Source: Planctomycetota bacterium (GTDB lineage Bacteria; Planctomycetota; Planctomycetia; Gemmatales; Gemmataceae). Taken from it: a DNA stretch of 35,110 bases. The stretch is from assembly GCA_021807595.1 (NCBI GenBank), contig JAKBCS010000046.1:1-35110 (forward strand), in the 5' to 3' direction. The notes beneath the pieces were generated by a model, which saw only the letters and a program-made list of their open reading frames with translations, was not told the DNA's origin and made no database searches. A program made the translations under genes and the position numbers. Below are positions 2,289 to 29,000 of the stretch, piece after piece (positions within the stretch are counted from its first letter, which is position 1; each line of letters starts with the position of its first letter).

Positions 2289-4385
2289 ATGAACGCCGCT
2301 TCTCTCCGCGATCGCGGGTTGCAACTGCTGCGCACGGCTTTGGACGATGCCTCTGCCGACTTTCGAGAAGGACAATGGGAGTCTATTGAGGCACTGGTGG
2401 AGCGGCGGGCGCGGTTGCTTTTGGTGCAACGAACCGGCTGGGGCAAGAGCGCGGTCTATTTTCTGAGTACGCGTATGCTGCGCGATCGAGGGGCAGGACC
2501 GACTTTGTTGGTGTCGCCTTTATTGGCCCTGATGCGCAATCAGATCGACGCGGCGGTTCGGCTCGGCGTTCGGGCGGCAACCGTCAACTCCACCAACTCC
2601 GACGATTGGAAAGCCATCGAACAACGCTTGCGAACCGATGACATCGACGTGCTAGTCGTGTCGCCGGAGCGCTTTGGCAACGAGACGTTTCTGACGCAAA
2701 TGCTCATGCCGCAGGCGGCGCGGGTGGGTTTGTTCGTGGTCGATGAGGCGCACTGTATCTCCGATTGGGGGCACGATTTTCGCCCGGATTATCGGCGGAT
2801 CGTTCGCATTCTGGAACGCCTGCCAGGTAATGTGCCGGTGTGCGCGACGACGGCGACGGCCAACGATCGCGTGGTGGCCGATGTGGTGTCGCAACTCGGT
2901 TCGCATCTCGAAGTGCAGCGCGGGCCGCTGCGGCGCGAAAGCCTGCACCTGCAAACGGTCGCCCTGCCCGACGATGCGTCCAAGCTGGCCTGGTTGGCAC
3001 ACTATCTCCCCAGCTTGAAGAAAAAGGGCGGCAAAAGCGGCATCGTCTATGCGTTGACCATTCGCTGGACCGAACGCATCGCCGATTGGCTCCGCAGTCG
3101 AGGGATGAAGGCCGAGGCGTACCACTCGCAGCTGGACGACCGCGAAGAGCGCGAGGGGCTGCTGCTGCGCAATGAAATCGACGCCTTGATCGCCACCACG
3201 GCCCTGGGCATGGGATACGACAAGCCCGATCTCGGTTTCGTCGTCCACTTCCATCAACCGGCTTCCGTGGTGCATTACTATCAACAAGTGGGGCGGGCGG
3301 GACGGTGCATTAGCGATGCCTATGGCGTGATGCTGTCCGGGAGCGACGACCGCGCCATCAACGATTATTTCATCGAACAGGCGTTTCCGACCGAGGAAGA
3401 GGTTACGACGATTCTCGGCGTGGTGGAGCAATCGGCCCAAGGGTTGACGATGGCGCAACTCGAAGCGGCGGTCAATCTGTCGCGGACGCAGATCGAGCGC
3501 GTTCTCAAAACGCTGGCGGTGGAGACGCCTCCTCCGTTGGCGAAATTGGAGACGCGCTGGGTGGCCACGCTTCAGCGTTACGATCCCCGGCGTCGCCACG
3601 AACTCATCGAACGCTTGACGCGGATTCGACAAGCGGAACAGAAGCACATGGATGCGTACGGTCAACATAACGGCTGTCTCATGGAGTTTTTAGCGAGAGC
3701 GCTCGACGATCCGACCGCTTCGCCGTGCGGTTGTTGTGCCTATTGCAAAGGCCAGCCGGAGGCGTTGCGGCGCGTACCGGAGAATCTGATCCGCGAAGCC
3801 GTCGTCTTCCTTCGCCGCTGCGATCTGCCGATTGAGCCGCGCGCCCAGTGGCCGAGCGATGCCCTGCCCAACTACGGCTGGCGCGGTCGCATCGCCGTCG
3901 AGAGGCGTGCGGAACCGGGACGCGCTTTGTGCATCCTCAACGATTCCGGCTGGGGGAGCATGGTTCGGCATGGGAAGAAAGAAGGTCGATTCGCCGAGGA
4001 ACTGGTGGAAGCCCTGACGGATCTGATCCAGCGCCATCGCCCCCATCCCGCGCCGGAGTGGCTGACCTGCATTCCCTCGCTGCTCCATCCGGATCTGGTC
4101 CCCGACCTGGCAAATCGAGTGGCCACGCGCCTGGGGTTGCCCTTCGTTCCCGCCGTGCGCAAAGTGCGCGCCGTCCGACCGCAGAAAGACATGGAAAATA
4201 GTTGGCAGCGGGTACATAATTTAGACGGCGCGTTCCAGGTCGAGCGCCGGCAAGGCATGGCGGGGCCAGTGCTGTTGCTCGATGACATCGTGGATTCCGG
4301 TTGGACGTTGACGATTGCATCGGCCCTGCTCCGCCAGGAGGGCAGCGGCCCCGTATCGCCGTTCGTCCTGGCCGCCAGTCGCTAA
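2289..4385 (+). CDS. RecQ-family DNA helicase fused to a C-terminal phosphoribosyltransferase-like domain
   Basis: 698 residues from the ATG at 2289, preceded by GGGAG. The frame is open to 2223, but the extra 22 residues look unrelated. Residues 20-350 form a superfamily 2 helicase: Walker A RTGWGKS (48-54), DEAHC (152-156), motif III TTATA (187-191) and motif VI QVGRAGR (333-339). A winged-helix-like part follows, then a RecQ-type zinc cluster with Cys at 463, 480, 483 and 486. Residues of about 500-698 replace the usual HRDC domain with a phosphoribosyltransferase-like fold whose PRPP loop is LLLDDIVDSGWT (662-673). RecQ enzymes unwind DNA 3' to 5' using ATP; the substrate of the transferase-like domain is unknown. 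The DprA-like gene starts 14 nt after the stop, so the two probably form an operon. Not a housekeeping recQ in architecture. Confidence 0.88.
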   Translation: MNAASLRDRGLQLLRTALDDASADFREGQWESIEALVERRARLLLVQRTGWGKSAVYFLSTRMLRDRGAGPTLLVSPLLALMRNQIDAAVRLGVRAATVNSTNSDDWKAIEQRLRTDDIDVLVVSPERFGNETFLTQMLMPQAARVGLFVVDEAHCISDWGHDFRPDYRRIVRILERLPGNVPVCATTATANDRVVADVVSQLGSHLEVQRGPLRRESLHLQTVALPDDASKLAWLAHYLPSLKKKGGKSGIVYALTIRWTERIADWLRSRGMKAEAYHSQLDDREEREGLLLRNEIDALIATTALGMGYDKPDLGFVVHFHQPASVVHYYQQVGRAGRCISDAYGVMLSGSDDRAINDYFIEQAFPTEEEVTTILGVVEQSAQGLTMAQLEAAVNLSRTQIERVLKTLAVETPPPLAKLETRWVATLQRYDPRRRHELIERLTRIRQAEQKHMDAYGQHNGCLMEFLARALDDPTASPCGCCAYCKGQPEALRRVPENLIREAVVFLRRCDLPIEPRAQWPSDALPNYGWRGRIAVERRAEPGRALCILNDSGWGSMVRHGKKEGRFAEELVEALTDLIQRHRPHPAPEWLTCIPSLLHPDLVPDLANRVATRLGLPFVPAVRKVRAVRPQKDMENSWQRVHNLDGAFQVERRQGMAGPVLLLDDIVDSGWTLTIASALLRQEGSGPVSPFVLAASR

Positions 4386-7595: not shown

Positions 7596-8169
7596 CCGCG
7601 TTCCCTTTCTGAAAAGCCTCGACAATGGCGGCACGAACCTCGGCCACCGCCGATTCCAATTCGTCGTTCATCACGACGCGGTCGAACTCTCCCATGCGAT
7701 CCAACTCACGCCGCGCCGTGTCCAATCGACGGGCGATCTGCTCTTCGCTTTCCGTGCCGCGCTGGCGCAGACGTTGCTCGTAAATCTGCCACGACGAGGC
7801 CCGAAGAAAGATCGACAGACATTGGGGGCAGCGGGCGCGTACCTGAGCCGCTCCTTGCACGTCGATATCCAGAATCACCCCCACGCCCCGCGCGCGATAA
7901 TCGTCCACCTCGCGGCACGGCGTGCCATACCACTGCCCGTTCACTTCGGCCCACTCGAGGAATGCCCCGGCTTGCACTTGTTCTTGAAACCGCTCGCGCG
8001 TCCAAAACCAGTAGTGAATGCCATTGCGTTCGTAGGACCGCGGAGGCCGGGTCGTCGCCGACACCGACAACCGCAGAGGCACATCGCCCTTCTCCACCAA
8101 TCGGGCGATGAGAGTGGATTTCCCACTGCCGCTCGGACCAGACACGATGATTAACGGCGCTATTCCCAT
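7585..8169 (-). CDS. gmk: Guanylate kinase
   Basis: 194 residues, the typical family size. P-loop GPSGSGKST at 11-19, then SVSATTRPPRSYERNGIHYWF, the GMP-binding segment, and VILDIDVQGAAQV, the core strand. The enzyme phosphorylates GMP or dGMP to the diphosphate using ATP. It overlaps the start of rpoZ by 11 nt and lies downstream of yicC, the usual bacterial arrangement. No clear Shine-Dalgarno precedes the ATG, where the upstream DNA is the inverted repeat at 8180-8277. It may rely on read-through translation or an unusual initiation context. Confidence 0.96.
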   Translation of the reverse strand: MGIAPLIIVSGPSGSGKSTLIARLVEKGDVPLRLSVSATTRPPRSYERNGIHYWFWTRERFQEQVQAGAFLEWAEVNGQWYGTPCREVDDYRARGVGVILDIDVQGAAQVRARCPQCLSIFLRASSWQIYEQRLRQRGTESEEQIARRLDTARRELDRMGEFDRVVMNDELESAVAEVRAAIVEAFQKGNADAG

Positions 8170-22550: not shown

Positions 22551-23477
22551 CTAACCTTCGTTGTCGAGAATGTCCACCGACGGAAGATCGCGATTTTCTC
22601 GATGGACGCGCAGGACATTGCGCAGCACTTCGCGCCCCAATGCCGCGTAGGCCGCGTCGAGTAATTCGTAAGCATACTCGGTATGCCGTTCGCCGCCGAT
22701 TGCCCAGAGATCCTTGCCGAGTTTGAGAGCCGTGCCGGGAAAGCCGTCGTGCAATGCCTGCCTCGCTTCATCGACGATGTCGACCGGGTCGTCCGTTTGA
22801 CACAGATACGACCACAATTTTCGGTCCTTGCGGGATAGCGGTCGGTAGCGATCCGGCGGCACGACGATGCCCATCCCCTCTTGCGTTTTGGCCGTGGGAC
22901 GCCGGCGCGACCGACCGGCCCAGCGATCCACATATGCCGCACCGATCTCGTCGCGCTTCGATCCGTCGAATGCCATCCATTGGGCGCGGCGGCAATCGAG
23001 TCGCCGCATTTCCTCGTCGTATTCCGCGCGATGGTCCGGATCGTCCTCGCGGTCTTCTTCGCAATCCCGATAGCGTTCTTCCAGATGCAGGCGAACCGCT
23101 TCGAAAAGATCGTCGCCGTCCACCGAAAACTCGGAGGCATCGACGGCGTAGTACGAGGCGACACAACCGCTCCCGCGCGCCGGATCGTCGAGATAATAAC
23201 CCCAGTGCAAACCGTCGCCTTCCCCCGCGAGTACCGTGAAAAACTCTGGCGGATCAAAGGAGTAACGCCAGTGCAAAAGGAGGCTATGTCGCGGCGTGAC
23301 TTTGTCGAAGCGACCGGCCAGGATCTCGAATGGACCTACCAGTTGGATCGATAAATTGAGAAGTGCGTTCAGCGGTTCGAGCGGTTGCAGACGATTGACG
23401 AGATTCCAGAAGCGGAAGAAATCTTCGGGAAAGTCGAAGCCGTATAGTTCGCGCAGTTGTTGACGACGATCGATCAT
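22551..23477 (-). CDS. HPF1-like (DUF2228) protein, homologue of the eukaryotic histone PARylation factor
   Basis: 308 residues from the ATG at 23477; the open frame extends to 23564 only because it runs through the palindrome at 23496-23559. Compared from memory with human HPF1, the order of motifs is the same. FPEDFFRFWNLVNRLQP (16-32) corresponds to LPEDFYHFWKF. LVGPFEILAG (46-55) matches LVGPYDILAG, and HWRYSFDPPEF (69-79) matches HWRFYYDPPEF. HWGYYLDDP (91-99), GMGIVVPPD (201-209), YR (211-212) and LKLGKDLW (251-258) follow. Human HPF1 completes the PARP1 or PARP2 active site to direct ADP-ribose to serine. The human Tyr238-Arg239 pair is conserved as Y211-R212, and the catalytic Glu284 position is occupied by D244 in an ungapped local alignment. 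No PARP gene is in the window, so the partner is unknown. Confidence 0.85.
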   Translation of the reverse strand: MIDRRQQLRELYGFDFPEDFFRFWNLVNRLQPLEPLNALLNLSIQLVGPFEILAGRFDKVTPRHSLLLHWRYSFDPPEFFTVLAGEGDGLHWGYYLDDPARGSGCVASYYAVDASEFSVDGDDLFEAVRLHLEERYRDCEEDREDDPDHRAEYDEEMRRLDCRRAQWMAFDGSKRDEIGAAYVDRWAGRSRRRPTAKTQEGMGIVVPPDRYRPLSRKDRKLWSYLCQTDDPVDIVDEARQALHDGFPGTALKLGKDLWAIGGERHTEYAYELLDAAYAALGREVLRNVLRVHRENRDLPSVDILDNEG

Positions 23478-23495: not shown

Positions 23496-23559
23496 TTCGT
23501 TTAGCCGCGACGCGCAGCGGAGCGGGATCGCGCTCCGCTGCGCGTCGCGGCTGAACGAA
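23496..23559. repeat. Palindromic repeat (family copy C)
   Basis: 29-nt arms with one mismatch around a 6-nt loop. The core is GCCGCGACGCGCAGCGGAGC, differing from copy A by one base (GCGCAGC in place of GCGGAGC). It starts 12 nt past the stop of the DUF1501 gene and ends 18 nt before the HPF1-like start. Confidence 0.93.
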
Positions 23560-23571
23560 GACATTTTGACC

Positions 23572-25032
23572 TTACGACAAAATGCCCGTGACCGGCTCGC
23601 CCTGTACCAGTTCGCGCGGTTGATTGAGATGGTTCAAGACCATCGTGTTCGGATCGATGCCGACACTGTGGTAGATGGTGGCCAACAGTTCGCGCGGGTG
23701 GACGGGATTCTCGACCGGAGCGGAAGCCGTTTTGTCGGACTTGCCGTAGACCAAGCCGCGTTTGACCCCCGCACCGGCGATGACTCCGGTGTAGCAGTAT
23801 GGCCAATGATCGCGGCCATCGTCTTGATTGTCGTTGCCGGAGGTGCTGACGCCGCGCTGAGGGCTGCGGCCAAACTCTCCGACTGCTACCACCAGCGTTT
23901 CCGAGAGCAAGCCGCGTTGATCGAGGTCGTCGATCAGAGCCGACAGAGCCGAATCGAGCATTGGCGCGGCTTGATCCTTCATGCGTTTGGTGAGTCCGGC
24001 GTGAACGTCCCACGAGTGATTGTCGGAGTTGGCAACTTTCGGCCAATTGACTTCGACGAAGCGCGTTCCCGCTTCGATGAGGCGACGGGCCAGGAGACAG
24101 CTTTGGCCGAACGTGTTCATGCCGTAGCGTTCGCGCAGCGATTTCGGTTCTTCGGACAGCGCAAACGCTTTACGCGCGCGTCCGGAGATGACCAAGCCGA
24201 GCGCTTTGCCGTAGTATTCGTCGAGGCTGTATTTCGCTGTCGCTTCTTCGATGGCGGGCATGCCTTCGTTGATGCGATCGCGCAGTCGGGCACGACGTTG
24301 CAGCCGTTGCGAGGACACCTCGTCGCGCAGCTTCAAATCGTCGGTCTTGATGCGTTCCATCTTGTTCATGTCCATGTCGTCGCCGGCCGGATAGAGCAAG
24401 TACGGATCGTAGGCGCGACCGAGGAAACCGGCGTTGCCCCCCTTGCCCACGACGTTGCTCTCTTGCAGCGGACGCGGCATCATCACGAAGGGCAGCATCG
24501 GCACGGTCGGCGGCTTGAGGCGGATGATGTTCGATCCGACGGTGGGGAAATCCTTGGGAGAGGGCGGTTCGAGTTGGCCGGACGGGCTGACTTTGTCGGC
24601 GGTGTAGCCGGTCAGCATTTGATAGATGGCCGCCGTGTGATTGAACAGGCCGACGGGAGTATAGCTGAGCGCGCGGAGCATGGTGACTTTGTCGTTGACC
24701 TTGGCGAACTTGGGCAACAACTCTGTGAACTTGCAGCCGGGCACTTTGGTGTCGATGGCCTTGAAGACGCTTTTGACGTTGGCGGGCACGTTGTCCTTGG
24801 GATCCCACAAGTCGAGATGGCTCGGCCCGCCTTGCAGATAGAGCAAAATGACGCTCTTGGCCTTGCCGAAGCCGGGACCGCCGCCGCTTTGCTTCTTGGC
24901 CTGCGCCTGTTGCAGGGCGAAGATATTGGCCAAACTGACGCCGAGCAGGGCCGAGCCGCCGACGCGCAACAATTCGCGGCGCGTCATGCCGTCGCAGGTA
25001 GCTCTGCCTGCTTGTCCAGGGATCACGAGCAT
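23572..25032 (-). CDS. DUF1501 domain protein with twin-arginine leader
   Basis: 486 residues with GAGGA before the ATG. The N-terminus [21 protein letters not shown] is a twin-arginine signal, so it is predicted to be exported folded. The body carries the DUF1501 pattern: [37 protein letters not shown] and the C-terminal [12 protein letters not shown]. It belongs to the sulfatase or alkaline-phosphatase-like superfamily. DUF1501 proteins are extremely common in planctomycetes, often next to cytochrome-containing DUF1549/DUF1553 proteins, and their substrate is unknown. Here the neighbour is a two-haem cytochrome encoded upstream on the same strand. The RR motif lies about 15 residues in, so a shorter start at the internal ATG before TRRELL is possible. 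Confidence 0.92.
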
Positions 25033-25149
25033 GATCGATTCCTCATGGAAAGTGGGATCGTCGCGGGAGGGTGGGCAAGTCTTAACTCTACCTAGTAACT
25101 ATACTGAGTCAACGATCTGGCTGTCAAACATTATCTTCGCGATTCCTTC

Positions 25150-25237: not shown

Positions 25238-26575
25238 TCAAATCGTTTTCAGATACTCGAGAATCGCTTTGCGTTCGTCCTCGCTGAGTTTATCGCCGTA
25301 GGTGTGGCCGCCGTTGCCACGTCCGATCGCGCCGGTGTCATAGATTTTGCGATACTCCAACGGCGACAGTTCGGACGCTTTGGGCTTGTTCGGCAGCACC
25401 TCTACCTTCCAACCCAATTTCTCCGCGTCGTAGGCATCGAGATCGGTACGGAACGAGCGCGTGAAAAACTTCGGCCGCGCTTTCGAGTTCAGGACGTGGT
25501 AGACCGTGGGCGAGGAGCCGTTGTGAAAGTACGGCGCGGTGGCCCAGATACCGTCGAGAGGCGGGGCTTGATAGCCAACACCGGCGCGGATCGGATAATC
25601 TCGGTTGAACCAACTCTTGGCGTAATAGTCGCCGAACTTTTGGGTGATGCCGTCGAAGCGCCGGCGATCCGTGCCGATCTTGTCGAGGGGCACAATTTTG
25701 TTCGGATAGGTCCACTTCTCGCCGTAGGTGCCGTGGCAGCGCGCGCAGTTCGACGCGAATAGTTCTTCCCCCTTGGCGGCGAGTCGGCGAGCGATGGGGA
25801 GGGGATACTTCGGCGGATTGAGCGACAGCAGGTAGGCGCGGATGTTCTTGAAGTCTTCCTCTGCCCGCATAATGTCGGAGCCGGAATTGAGCGGACTCAT
25901 CATAAACTGCATCAGAGAGCGAGCCGAGCGCGAATCCGCCCCTCCAGTAAAGTACATGGTCTTTTTCTTCTTGAGCAACCACCAAGCCGGCACGTCTTCG
26001 CAGAGATCGTCTTGCAGATCGAGATCGAGGCGCGTCAATCGGCGGTCGAGATTCGGTTCGCGGTAGCCGAGGAGATAGACCGCCATCGCTCCCGCCTCGT
26101 TGGTGCCACGGACATGGCAGAACTGAAAGGGCGTGCGCGGCGCGCGGCCGTCGGCGGCGGACATCTCCTCATAAAATGCCTGATAATCGAGGGTGGAATT
26201 GCCCAAGCCGACGTAGGACTTACCGCCGATCGAGCCGCCGTGACATACCATGCAATCCATGCTGATGCCCTTGCCCAAGCCCAGAGGCAACGGAGCGGGA
26301 CGCAGCCCCATCGGTAAGCCGCCGTTCAGATACGGCGCGACGTGCAGACCGTAGCGTTCGCGGAACAATCGGTCGTAGTCGGCCGCGGCGGGCTTTTGTT
26401 TCAGCCCCCACTGCTTCCAGACATCGTCGTAGGCGCGGCGCGTCATGGTCGGCGGCGCGTAGCATTTGGTCAGCAGCGCCTTCTCGCCTCGAACGGCACT
26501 CCCCTCCTCGGCTCGAACCGTTGCCAAGAAGCCAAAGGACAGCACGACGAGCCACAGACGAGATTTTCGCTTCAT
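25238..26575 (-). CDS. Exported two-haem c-type cytochrome
   Basis: 445 residues from the ATG at 26575, which follows GGAGGT; the longer frame to 26710 lacks support. A signal peptide (MKRKSRLWLVVLSFGFLATVRA) precedes the mature part. Two CXXCH haem motifs lie at 108-112 (CMVCH) and 277-281 (CARCH). The spacing and the C-terminal YQAPPLDGIWATAPYFHNGS segment resemble di-haem cytochrome c peroxidase/MauG-like and planctomycete PSCyt-type proteins. A role in periplasmic electron transfer is likely. It is encoded upstream of the DUF1501 gene and may act with it. Confidence 0.88.
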   Translation of the reverse strand: MKRKSRLWLVVLSFGFLATVRAEEGSAVRGEKALLTKCYAPPTMTRRAYDDVWKQWGLKQKPAAADYDRLFRERYGLHVAPYLNGGLPMGLRPAPLPLGLGKGISMDCMVCHGGSIGGKSYVGLGNSTLDYQAFYEEMSAADGRAPRTPFQFCHVRGTNEAGAMAVYLLGYREPNLDRRLTRLDLDLQDDLCEDVPAWWLLKKKKTMYFTGGADSRSARSLMQFMMSPLNSGSDIMRAEEDFKNIRAYLLSLNPPKYPLPIARRLAAKGEELFASNCARCHGTYGEKWTYPNKIVPLDKIGTDRRRFDGITQKFGDYYAKSWFNRDYPIRAGVGYQAPPLDGIWATAPYFHNGSSPTVYHVLNSKARPKFFTRSFRTDLDAYDAEKLGWKVEVLPNKPKASELSPLEYRKIYDTGAIGRGNGGHTYGDKLSEDERKAILEYLKTI

Positions 26576-26826
26576 CGCTCGAACCTCCACGCTTCCTCGA
26601 TTGCTCCGCTTCTTTTCCGCTTCTTTAATTGTAGCAACGGCGTTCAAGGGATTCCTTCTGGTTCTCGACTCGTACAATAACTTCCCTGCCCATCTCGGCA
26701 CGGAATGCAAACCGTGCCCCTGCCGGACGATTAACTCTCCTTCGCCGGCAGATTCGGTAGCGGCCGCGCGCCAAAGGGCCTCGCGGTAGGCGTGGTTCGC
26801 CGGACCTGCGCAAAGGAGCGACTCGG

Positions 26827-27765
26827 ATGGAAATTCGCACGTTTCAACGAGGCGACGAAGTCTCGCAAGTGAGCATTTACAACGAGGCCGCCGGCGAACT
26901 GCCGAAGTTCAAAGCGGCGACCCTCGACGAAGTTCGCCGCCGCGCGCTCGCTCCCGACTACGACGCGACCGCTCGATTCCTCGCAGTTGTGGACGGTCGG
27001 CCCGTGGGCTACGCCGGATTTCAGGAGAACGGCCGCGTGAATTATCCCTGGTGTCGCAAGGGACACGAGGCGGCGGCACAGCTGTTGTTCGATCGCGTGT
27101 TGCAAACGATGGCGGCGCGCCAAATGAAGACGGCATTCGCCGCCTATCGTGCCGATTGGCCCGAACCGTTGGCATTTTTCCAGGCGAACGGCTTTCGGCA
27201 GACGCGCGAGATGGTCAACTATGTCCTCGACATCGTCGAGATGCCCACGCCCACGGCGCGTCCCAACAGCAGTATCGGGCCTGCGACACCCGAAGACTTG
27301 TCCGCCATTCTCGAAATGGGCGCGAAGGTGTTGCGCGTGTCCGAGCGCGAGGCGCTGGGAGTCTATCTCTTCGACAATCCGTATTTCCCCGCCGATTCGG
27401 TTTTCGTTCTCCGCAGCCGTGCCGGGGGTCCCGCGATGGCCGTGGCCGTGCTCGTCGCCAACCCGGCCTACGCGCATCCGCGTCAAGTCGATGCCGCCAT
27501 GCCGTGTTTTCGTCTCGGCGCGTTTGGCACCGAAGGGATGACCGCGAAGCGAATCAACGGCCTATTCAGTTTCGTGACCGCCGACGCGCGCGACGCCCAC
27601 CCTCTGGCGCTCGATCTCTTGGGGTATGCGGCCTATCGTTTACAAGACACCGAGGTGGAGACATTCGCGGCCCAGGTTCCCTCGGACGCTGGCCACTTAA
27701 TGCGTTTCTACAAACAATACTTCCAACGCCAGGGAAGTTTTCCCGTACTCGAACGCGCAATCTGA
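26827..27765 (+). CDS. GNAT-family N-acetyltransferase, probably tandem domains
   Basis: 312 residues with AAGGAG 8 nt before the ATG. The first half (1-140) contains GYAGFQENGRVNYPWCRKGHEAAAQLLFDRVL, an acetyl-CoA-binding pattern (R/K-x-x-G-x-x-A). The second half (about 150-305) begins IGPATPEDLSAILEMG and looks like a second, degenerate GNAT domain. The substrate cannot be told from sequence. It is divergent from the cytochrome gene and is followed by the FIST gene after 62 nt. Confidence 0.75.
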   Translation: MEIRTFQRGDEVSQVSIYNEAAGELPKFKAATLDEVRRRALAPDYDATARFLAVVDGRPVGYAGFQENGRVNYPWCRKGHEAAAQLLFDRVLQTMAARQMKTAFAAYRADWPEPLAFFQANGFRQTREMVNYVLDIVEMPTPTARPNSSIGPATPEDLSAILEMGAKVLRVSEREALGVYLFDNPYFPADSVFVLRSRAGGPAMAVAVLVANPAYAHPRQVDAAMPCFRLGAFGTEGMTAKRINGLFSFVTADARDAHPLALDLLGYAAYRLQDTEVETFAAQVPSDAGHLMRFYKQYFQRQGSFPVLERAI

Positions 27766-27780
27766 CGAGTGGAGAGAGTA

Positions 27781-27809
27781 GAGCGGAGCGAGAAGAAATT
27801 GCTCCGCTC
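27781..27809. repeat. Short hairpin between GNAT and FIST genes
   Basis: GAGCGGAGC and GCTCCGCTC (9 bp) enclose an 11-nt loop, 15 nt past the GNAT stop. It shares the GAGCGGAGC word with the larger palindrome family, so it may be a truncated relative or a coincidence. Confidence 0.55.
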
Positions 27810-27827
27810 GATAATGGAGGGCACGAC

Positions 27828-29000
27828 ATGCCGTTCGCCGCCGCCTTGTCCACGGCCGAGCCGACCCGCCAAGCAGTGGAAGAGGTCTGCGCGCGGACGC
27901 GCGCCGGTATATCCGGCGCGGTCGATCTCGCCGTCCTCTTTTTCTCGGCGCATCACGCACGCTCCGCCGACGTGTTGGCGCAGGTAGTCCAGCAGCGTCT
28001 GTCGCCGGGCTGTCTCCTCGGTTGCGTGGCCGAGTCCGTCATCGGCGAGCAACGAGAGATCGAGCAAAGTCCCGCCGTTAGCCTGTGGGCCGCTCGTTGG
28101 GCCAAACCCGTTACAATGGTTCCGTTTCATCTGGTGTTGGAACGCACCGCCGACGGCCCCAGTCTCTTCGGTTGGCCCGACGAACTGAACGGCGACGACA
28201 CCGAGCGAACCGCCGTCCTGCTTCTGGGCGATCCGTTTACCTTTCCCATCGACTTGTTTTTGCGGCGCGTCAACGAAGAGGCTTCGGGTGTGCCGGTTCT
28301 GGGCGGCATGGCCAGCGGCATCGGCGGTGCCGGTCAATGTCGGCTGCTGTTTCAAGATGCCGTCGAGGACCAAGGCGCGGCCGGCATCTTGCTGCGCGGT
28401 TCGCACGGCTTGCGCTCCATCGTGTCGCAGGGCTGTCGTCCCATTGGTCGCCCTCTGGTTATCACACGCGCCAAGGACAACCTCATTCTCGAATTGGGCG
28501 GCAAAACGCCGTTGGCTCTGTTACAAGAACTGTGGCCGGCGCTGTCGCCGGAGGAGCAGCACTTGTTCCAACAGGGGCTGCACATCGGCCGCGTCCACAA
28601 CGAGTACAAGGGCGATTTCCAGCGCGGCGATTTCCTCGTCCGCAACGTCCTCGCCCTCGAACGCGAAACGGGGGCGCTTGCGATAACCGACCGCGTGCGC
28701 GTCGGTCAAACGGTGCAATTCCACGTCCGGGACGCCGCGACCGCCGATGAGGATTTACACGCTCTGTTACGTCTCGATTTAAGCGCTCACGACCTCGCGC
28801 CGAAATCGGCGCTGTTGTTTACCTGCAACGGGCGCGGCACGCGCTTGTTCGCACAGCCGCACCACGATGCGGGCGTTGTCCGCGCCGAGGCCGGCGACAT
28901 CCCCATTGCCGGTTTCTTCGCGCAGGGTGAGTTCGGCCCGGTCGGCGGACAAAACTTCATTCACGGCTTCACCGCCAGTTTGGCGCTTTTTGAAGAGTGA
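27828..29000 (+). CDS. FIST N- and C-domain sensor protein
   Basis: 390 residues from the ATG at 27828 with GGAGG 7 nt upstream; the reading frame begins earlier, inside the GNAT gene, without support. The N-terminal half fits FIST_N ([48 protein letters not shown]). The C-terminal half fits FIST_C ([67 protein letters not shown]). FIST domains are thought to sense small ligands such as amino acids. Here the module stands alone with no kinase or methyl-accepting domain attached, and the gene sits between a GNAT gene and the str cluster. Confidence 0.88.

Follow-up and report, generated by a model that had tools for sequence, protein, structure and literature searches.

HPF1 (C4orf27, histone PARylation factor 1) occurs in animals and some protists, and the human protein is the helper that makes PARP1/2 modify serines. 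Among eukaryotes, it is present in nearly all PARP1-bearing organisms, and its evolution was described as coupled to that of PARP1 within the eukaryotes (PMC4858568). The C-terminal Leu-Trp of human PARP1/2 inserts into HPF1 (PMC8634249). Within human HPF1, R239 pairs with E284 and D286. The exchange D283H abolishes PARP1 binding, and E284A removes histone modification (PMC7884425). No literature on bacterial HPF1 was found in the open literature. Here, a gene from a planctomycete of the Gemmataceae is compared with these proteins. It lies in a stretch of 35,110 nucleotides that was analysed as a whole and is called the window in the following. From its letters alone, the gene had been predicted to encode a bacterial homologue of HPF1.

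HPF1 homology and domain folds

22551..23477, minus strand: gene of the HPF1-family protein, 308 aa, ATG at 23477 (PF10228, PDB HPF1 matches, AlphaFold2 model)

The original prediction had the coordinates and the length of 308 residues right, and the minus strand is added here. An alternative in-frame ATG at 23564 leads to a product of 337 aa, but the start at 23477 was preferred because conservation in the relative L007 begins there. The gene is the only HPF1 copy in its genome. Its dN/dS was 0.17 against the same-genus orthologue and ranged from 0.05 to 0.19 over the comparisons; with such a low value, the gene is considered to be under purifying selection.

The protein matched the Pfam model HPF1 (PF10228) with an E of 2.7e-34 and 119.4 bits, which is far above the curated cut-off of 27.1 bits, and the match spans profile positions 2-247 of 251. 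Among sequences in the PDB, Nematostella HPF1 was matched with 8.9e-36 and human HPF1 with 5.4e-28. All four HPF1 motifs that had been quoted for the protein are present, namely, LVGPFEILAG, HWRYSFDPPEF, GMGIVVPPD and LKLGKDL. An AlphaFold2 model of the whole protein, for which 14 bacterial members served as input alignment, had a pLDDT of 90.4 and a pTM of 0.88. The model matched HPF1 crystal structures with a Foldseek E of 5e-16. Superposed with VIA on human HPF1 of the HPF1-PARP1 complex (6m3i_A), it had the HPF1 fold with Z 31.6 and an rmsd of 2.5 over 284 residues. The window protein is a genuine bacterial HPF1 homologue, as had been predicted, and the homology is without doubt.

Two domains were assigned in the predicted structures:

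23058..23477, minus strand: N-terminal domain, residues 1-140, predicted SMI1/KNR4 (SUKH) fold (domain modelled alone)
22575..22844, minus strand: C-terminal helical domain, residues 212-301, TPR-like in the predicted model; the human counterpart binds PARP

The N-terminal domain modelled alone had a pLDDT of 81.6. Its highest VIA matches after HPF1 itself were 3d5p with Z 8.2 (rmsd 3.2, 108 residues aligned), 2icg with 7.6 and 2pag with 7.3. Knr4 entries were found at about Z 7 (best 7.3), followed by the T6SS immunity proteins Tdi1 and Tdi2 (5.7 and 5.5), FBXO3 (5.2) and Syd (4.3). We take 2icg, 2pag, FBXO3 and Syd to be members of the SUKH superfamily. All non-HPF1 chains above Z 4 were of the SMI1/KNR4 type or its kin, and the next chain followed at 3.6. 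The SUKH-type chains cover most of the domain (residues 2-138; about 105-125 residues), and the same family was also matched using the model of the whole protein. The best SUKH chains were not among the Foldseek matches listed and emerged when the Foldseek candidates were re-aligned with VIA. A Z of about 8 alone is unconvincing; the assignment is therefore based on one superfamily filling all places above the gap.

No match to a Pfam SUKH domain was obtained in the window protein. With hhalign, the HPF1 N-terminal domain matched SUKH weakly and over the first 32 residues only (P 0.004), compared to P 0.36 for the C-terminal domain as control. The motif G...[LF]P.[DE] at the start of the domain aligns in register with SMI1/KNR4 proteins, whereas a whole-domain sequence match is absent and the window protein has an additional C-terminal helical domain. 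As the sequence-profile match is short and weak, the SUKH claim rests on the predicted structure, and in this model the SMI1/KNR4 fold takes up the first ~140 residues. No publication linking HPF1 with SUKH, SMI1 or Knr4 was found in the open literature. The C-terminal part gave VIA matches to BamD, LGN and Fis1 with Z 5.7-7.6, a level that is common among helical proteins and weak on its own.

PARP-contact residues and PARP genes

Residues known from the human complex were compared in a MAFFT alignment of the window protein with human and Nematostella HPF1:

22842..22847, minus strand: Y211-R212, corresponding to human Y238-R239 (alignment with human and Nematostella HPF1)
22740..22751, minus strand: H243-D244-G245-F246, corresponding to human D283-E284-C285-D286 (alignment; same helix-loop-helix position in the model)

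Both residue assignments of the original prediction, a Tyr-Arg pair kept as Y211-R212 and D244 at the position of E284, agreed with this alignment, including their numbering. The alignment at 283-286 is backed by the model, in which D244-F246 form the loop joining two helices, although the exact register remains a choice. Human F280, D283, E284, C285, D286 and E292 correspond to Q, H, D, G, F and K in the window protein. F280, D283, E284, D286 and E292 are identical between human and Nematostella HPF1. With Q240, H243 and F246 in place of F280, D283 and D286, the PARP-binding face is not kept in the window protein.

Residues were counted across 26 bacterial members, leaving out the KOW fusion L130 with its misaligned row. 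The E284 position was occupied by D, E, Q, K, R, S, N, L, T or A and was acidic in seven of the 26; in the window protein it is Asp244. Tyr and Arg were both present in 6/26 and Asp at 283 in a single member; no member had Phe at 280. The window protein and the members closest to it retain the Tyr-Arg pair together with an acid at the E284 position. Judged by sequence, this combination is compatible with a cofactor role; as it varies across the bacteria, however, such a role was argued not to be the shared function of the HPF1 family.

A bacterial PARP-HPF1-like pair, which had been raised as a question, was not borne out by the genomes for this lineage. The PARP catalytic domain PF00644 had no match in the window's own genome at E up to 10; since this genome is 95.5% complete, a PARP might lie in a gap. 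A profile built from the bacterial members detected HPF1 in 23 of the 95 genomes (10 of 39 genera) of the window's family. PARP was found in 9/95, and no genome had both. The hypergeometric chance of such a zero overlap is ~0.07, so that it is read as a lack of association and not as avoidance. Nine family genomes without HPF1 (L085-L094) contain clear PARP catalytic domains with E down to 1.2e-46 and up to three per genome.

The named genome collection comprises 14 HPF1-bearing genomes, some of which are also part of the family survey. PARP was above the cut-off in one of the 14, a Microscillaceae genome (L022). It is a WGR-PARP that ends in ...YLVEVGN and thus is without the C-terminal Leu-Trp. 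This genome holds the WGR-PARP as well as an HPF1-LRR protein, but the two genes are on different contigs.

Macrodomains are common in bacteria, and a macrodomain protein is encoded in the window's own genome. Together with the HPF1 fold, which includes the PARP-binding domain, and the Tyr-Arg pair and acid shared by the window protein and its closest relatives, this would suit a true ADP-ribosylation cofactor. Such a protein would dock on a diverged ADP-ribosyltransferase beyond the reach of the PARP model and use D244 as general base like human E284. However, a PF00644 match is absent even at E 10, HPF1 and PARP never occur together in the window's family, the E284 position is free to vary, Tyr and Arg are retained in few members, and F280, D283 and D286 are changed. 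We therefore consider this role quite unlikely.

The window protein resembles human HPF1 in sequence over its whole length, in its whole fold and in the kept Tyr238-Arg239. It differs from it in the lack of a PARP in the genome, in the changed F280, D283, D286 and E292 and in the replacement of E284 by Asp; moreover, the bacterial gene is tied to DUF1501 in the window's family. Thus, the protein stands as a relative of the PARP cofactor HPF1 but is not demonstrably a PARP cofactor itself. By their residues, the window protein and the other bacterial members do not seem to be made for PARP binding.

The DUF1501 locus and the spread of the family

The gene directly upstream of HPF1 encodes a DUF1501 protein, and further elements were located around it:

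23572..25032, minus strand: DUF1501 protein, 486 aa, with a twin-arginine signal-like N-terminus (PF07394, E 7.1e-102)
23496..23559, no strand: near-perfect palindrome of 64 nt between DUF1501 and HPF1 (32-nt arms, 94% complementary, no spacer)
25098..25127, minus strand: putative promoter-like site upstream of DUF1501 (consensus scan, 11/12 matches)

Of the 23 family genomes with HPF1, 20 have a DUF1501 orthologue (76-100% identity) as the immediate upstream neighbour of the gene, separated from it by about 43-235 nt. On the DUF1501 tree, the adjacency changes twice compared to 10.1 times in shuffles, which is most simply one gain and one loss. DUF1501 orthologues are present in 81 family genomes and HPF1 in 23; most genomes thus have DUF1501 without HPF1, and DUF1501 does not need HPF1. 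None of the HPF1 genes examined outside the family adjoins DUF1501. At the common locus, HPF1 has changed at a much higher rate than the adjacent gene, with ~32% identity versus ~78% for DUF1501. The consensus scan gave no promoter-like site between the two genes. The stretch between them has a folding energy of -62.7 kcal/mol, and its long palindrome could be a transcript terminator or stabiliser.

GC-rich long palindromes between DUF1501 and HPF1 were seen in three related loci, namely, the window, L007 (~7900-8000) and L008 (~3440-3690). The palindrome ends GTTTAGCCGCGAC/GTCGCGGCTAAAC are common to the window and L008, and the palindrome of L007 differs. These palindromes may be REP-like elements or terminators. 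In L018 and L019 (= L066, L067), HPF1 is flanked by a DUF1501 gene on either side, in the same orientation; the second one shares only ~33% identity with the DUF1501 of the window. The window also contains a gene with CxxCH haem motifs upstream of DUF1501 (25238-26710, minus strand) and a gene for a FIST/FIST_C sensor protein (27051-29000, plus strand); both are kept beside the DUF1501-HPF1 pair in the same-genus relative L007.

The motifs LVGPF..LAG and HWRY..DPPEF are common to the window-type group and animal HPF1, as would be expected from a recent transfer of an animal-type HPF1 into the planctomycete or from contamination of the assembly. However, the gene occupies the same locus in 20 family genomes with a divergence down to ~32%, and its neighbours are typical planctomycete genes. 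In a tree that took in two eukaryotic sequences, human and Nematostella HPF1 formed their own long branch with no supported place inside the window's group, the eukaryotic branch itself not being reliably placed. A contaminant or recent transfer was rejected on synteny and divergence and is regarded as very improbable.

Across the phylum, the Pfam model detected HPF1 in 2/392 genomes. Further members from the named collection come from Saprospiraceae and Microscillaceae (Bacteroidota), from an uncultured proteobacterium and from the cultured Ktedonobacter racemifer (Chloroflexota). A Chloroflexota sample contained HPF1 in three of 400 genomes, with two copies in K. racemifer. Bacterial members are thus found in at least four phyla. 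In Bacteroidota and a proteobacterium, the HPF1 domain is joined to C-terminal leucine-rich repeats (L011:4533-6431, L012:7995-9869 and L014:7323-9212). An HPF1-like domain also follows an N-terminal KOW-like (NusG/Spt5-type) segment in L002:682-1767 and, by eye, in L130. These KOW-HPF1 fusions stem from one planctomycete and one Chloroflexota genome. Searches of plasmid and phage records gave no HPF1 match, and neither the bacterial alignment nor human HPF1 matched in viral contigs.

Many SUKH-fold proteins are immunity-type proteins. The window protein might likewise belong to a toxin conflict system, and eukaryotic HPF1 would then have arisen by domestication of a protein that inhibits an ADP-ribosyltransferase toxin. 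The predicted SUKH fold of the N-terminal domain with Tdi1 and Tdi2 among its matches, the patchy spread over phyla and the fast divergence relative to DUF1501 point in this direction. However, a toxin or secretion gene adjoins none of the examined HPF1 genes, which are flanked, in the window as elsewhere, by DUF1501, housekeeping genes or unrelated ones; in its lack of a toxin neighbour, the window gene differs from those of SUKH immunity proteins. Vertical inheritance at one locus within the family and the lack of matches in phages, plasmids and viral contigs also speak against such a system, and we regard an immunity function as unlikely.

Proposed role and origin

The window protein combines the predicted SUKH-fold N-terminal domain with the TPR-like helical C-terminal domain. 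It is probably an adaptor that binds proteins in the cytoplasm, or a modulator similar to a chaperone, with a partner other than PARP. In the planctomycete lineage, the HPF1 gene would have been placed once behind the DUF1501 gene with its Tat-type signal and inherited together with it as a probable operon. As a specific guess, the HPF1 protein might assist or restrain the exported DUF1501 protein or another member of its pathway. In the window's family, the leading candidate for the partner is thus the DUF1501 product or its pathway, but this link, taken by itself, is less likely than not. We infer that the adaptor acts in the cytoplasm and that the DUF1501 link may be functional.

An older origin of the fold, which the original prediction had named next to a PARP-HPF1-like pair, gains support from the predicted SUKH fold of the N-terminal domain and from members in at least four bacterial phyla. 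It is conceivable, at somewhat less than even chances, that HPF1 descends from old bacterial adaptors of the SUKH-plus-helical-repeat type that worked without PARP. On this view, the face that contacts PARP and the catalytic glutamate would have been added later in eukaryotes; eukaryotic HPF1 probably acquired its PARP chemistry on this scaffold.

The predicted SUKH fold of the HPF1 N-terminal domain, which is that of a protein-binding domain common in bacteria, is new here and may hint at the origin of human HPF1. If confirmed, it connects an intensively studied human factor of DNA repair with a large superfamily that comprises protein-binding as well as immunity domains. The bacterial HPF1 proteins offer naturally occurring counterparts against which mutants of the PARP interface can be compared. 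Members without a PARP make the origin of HPF1 testable and open the questions of what role the scaffold had prior to PARP and by which substitutions (F280, D283, E284) HPF1 became a cofactor.
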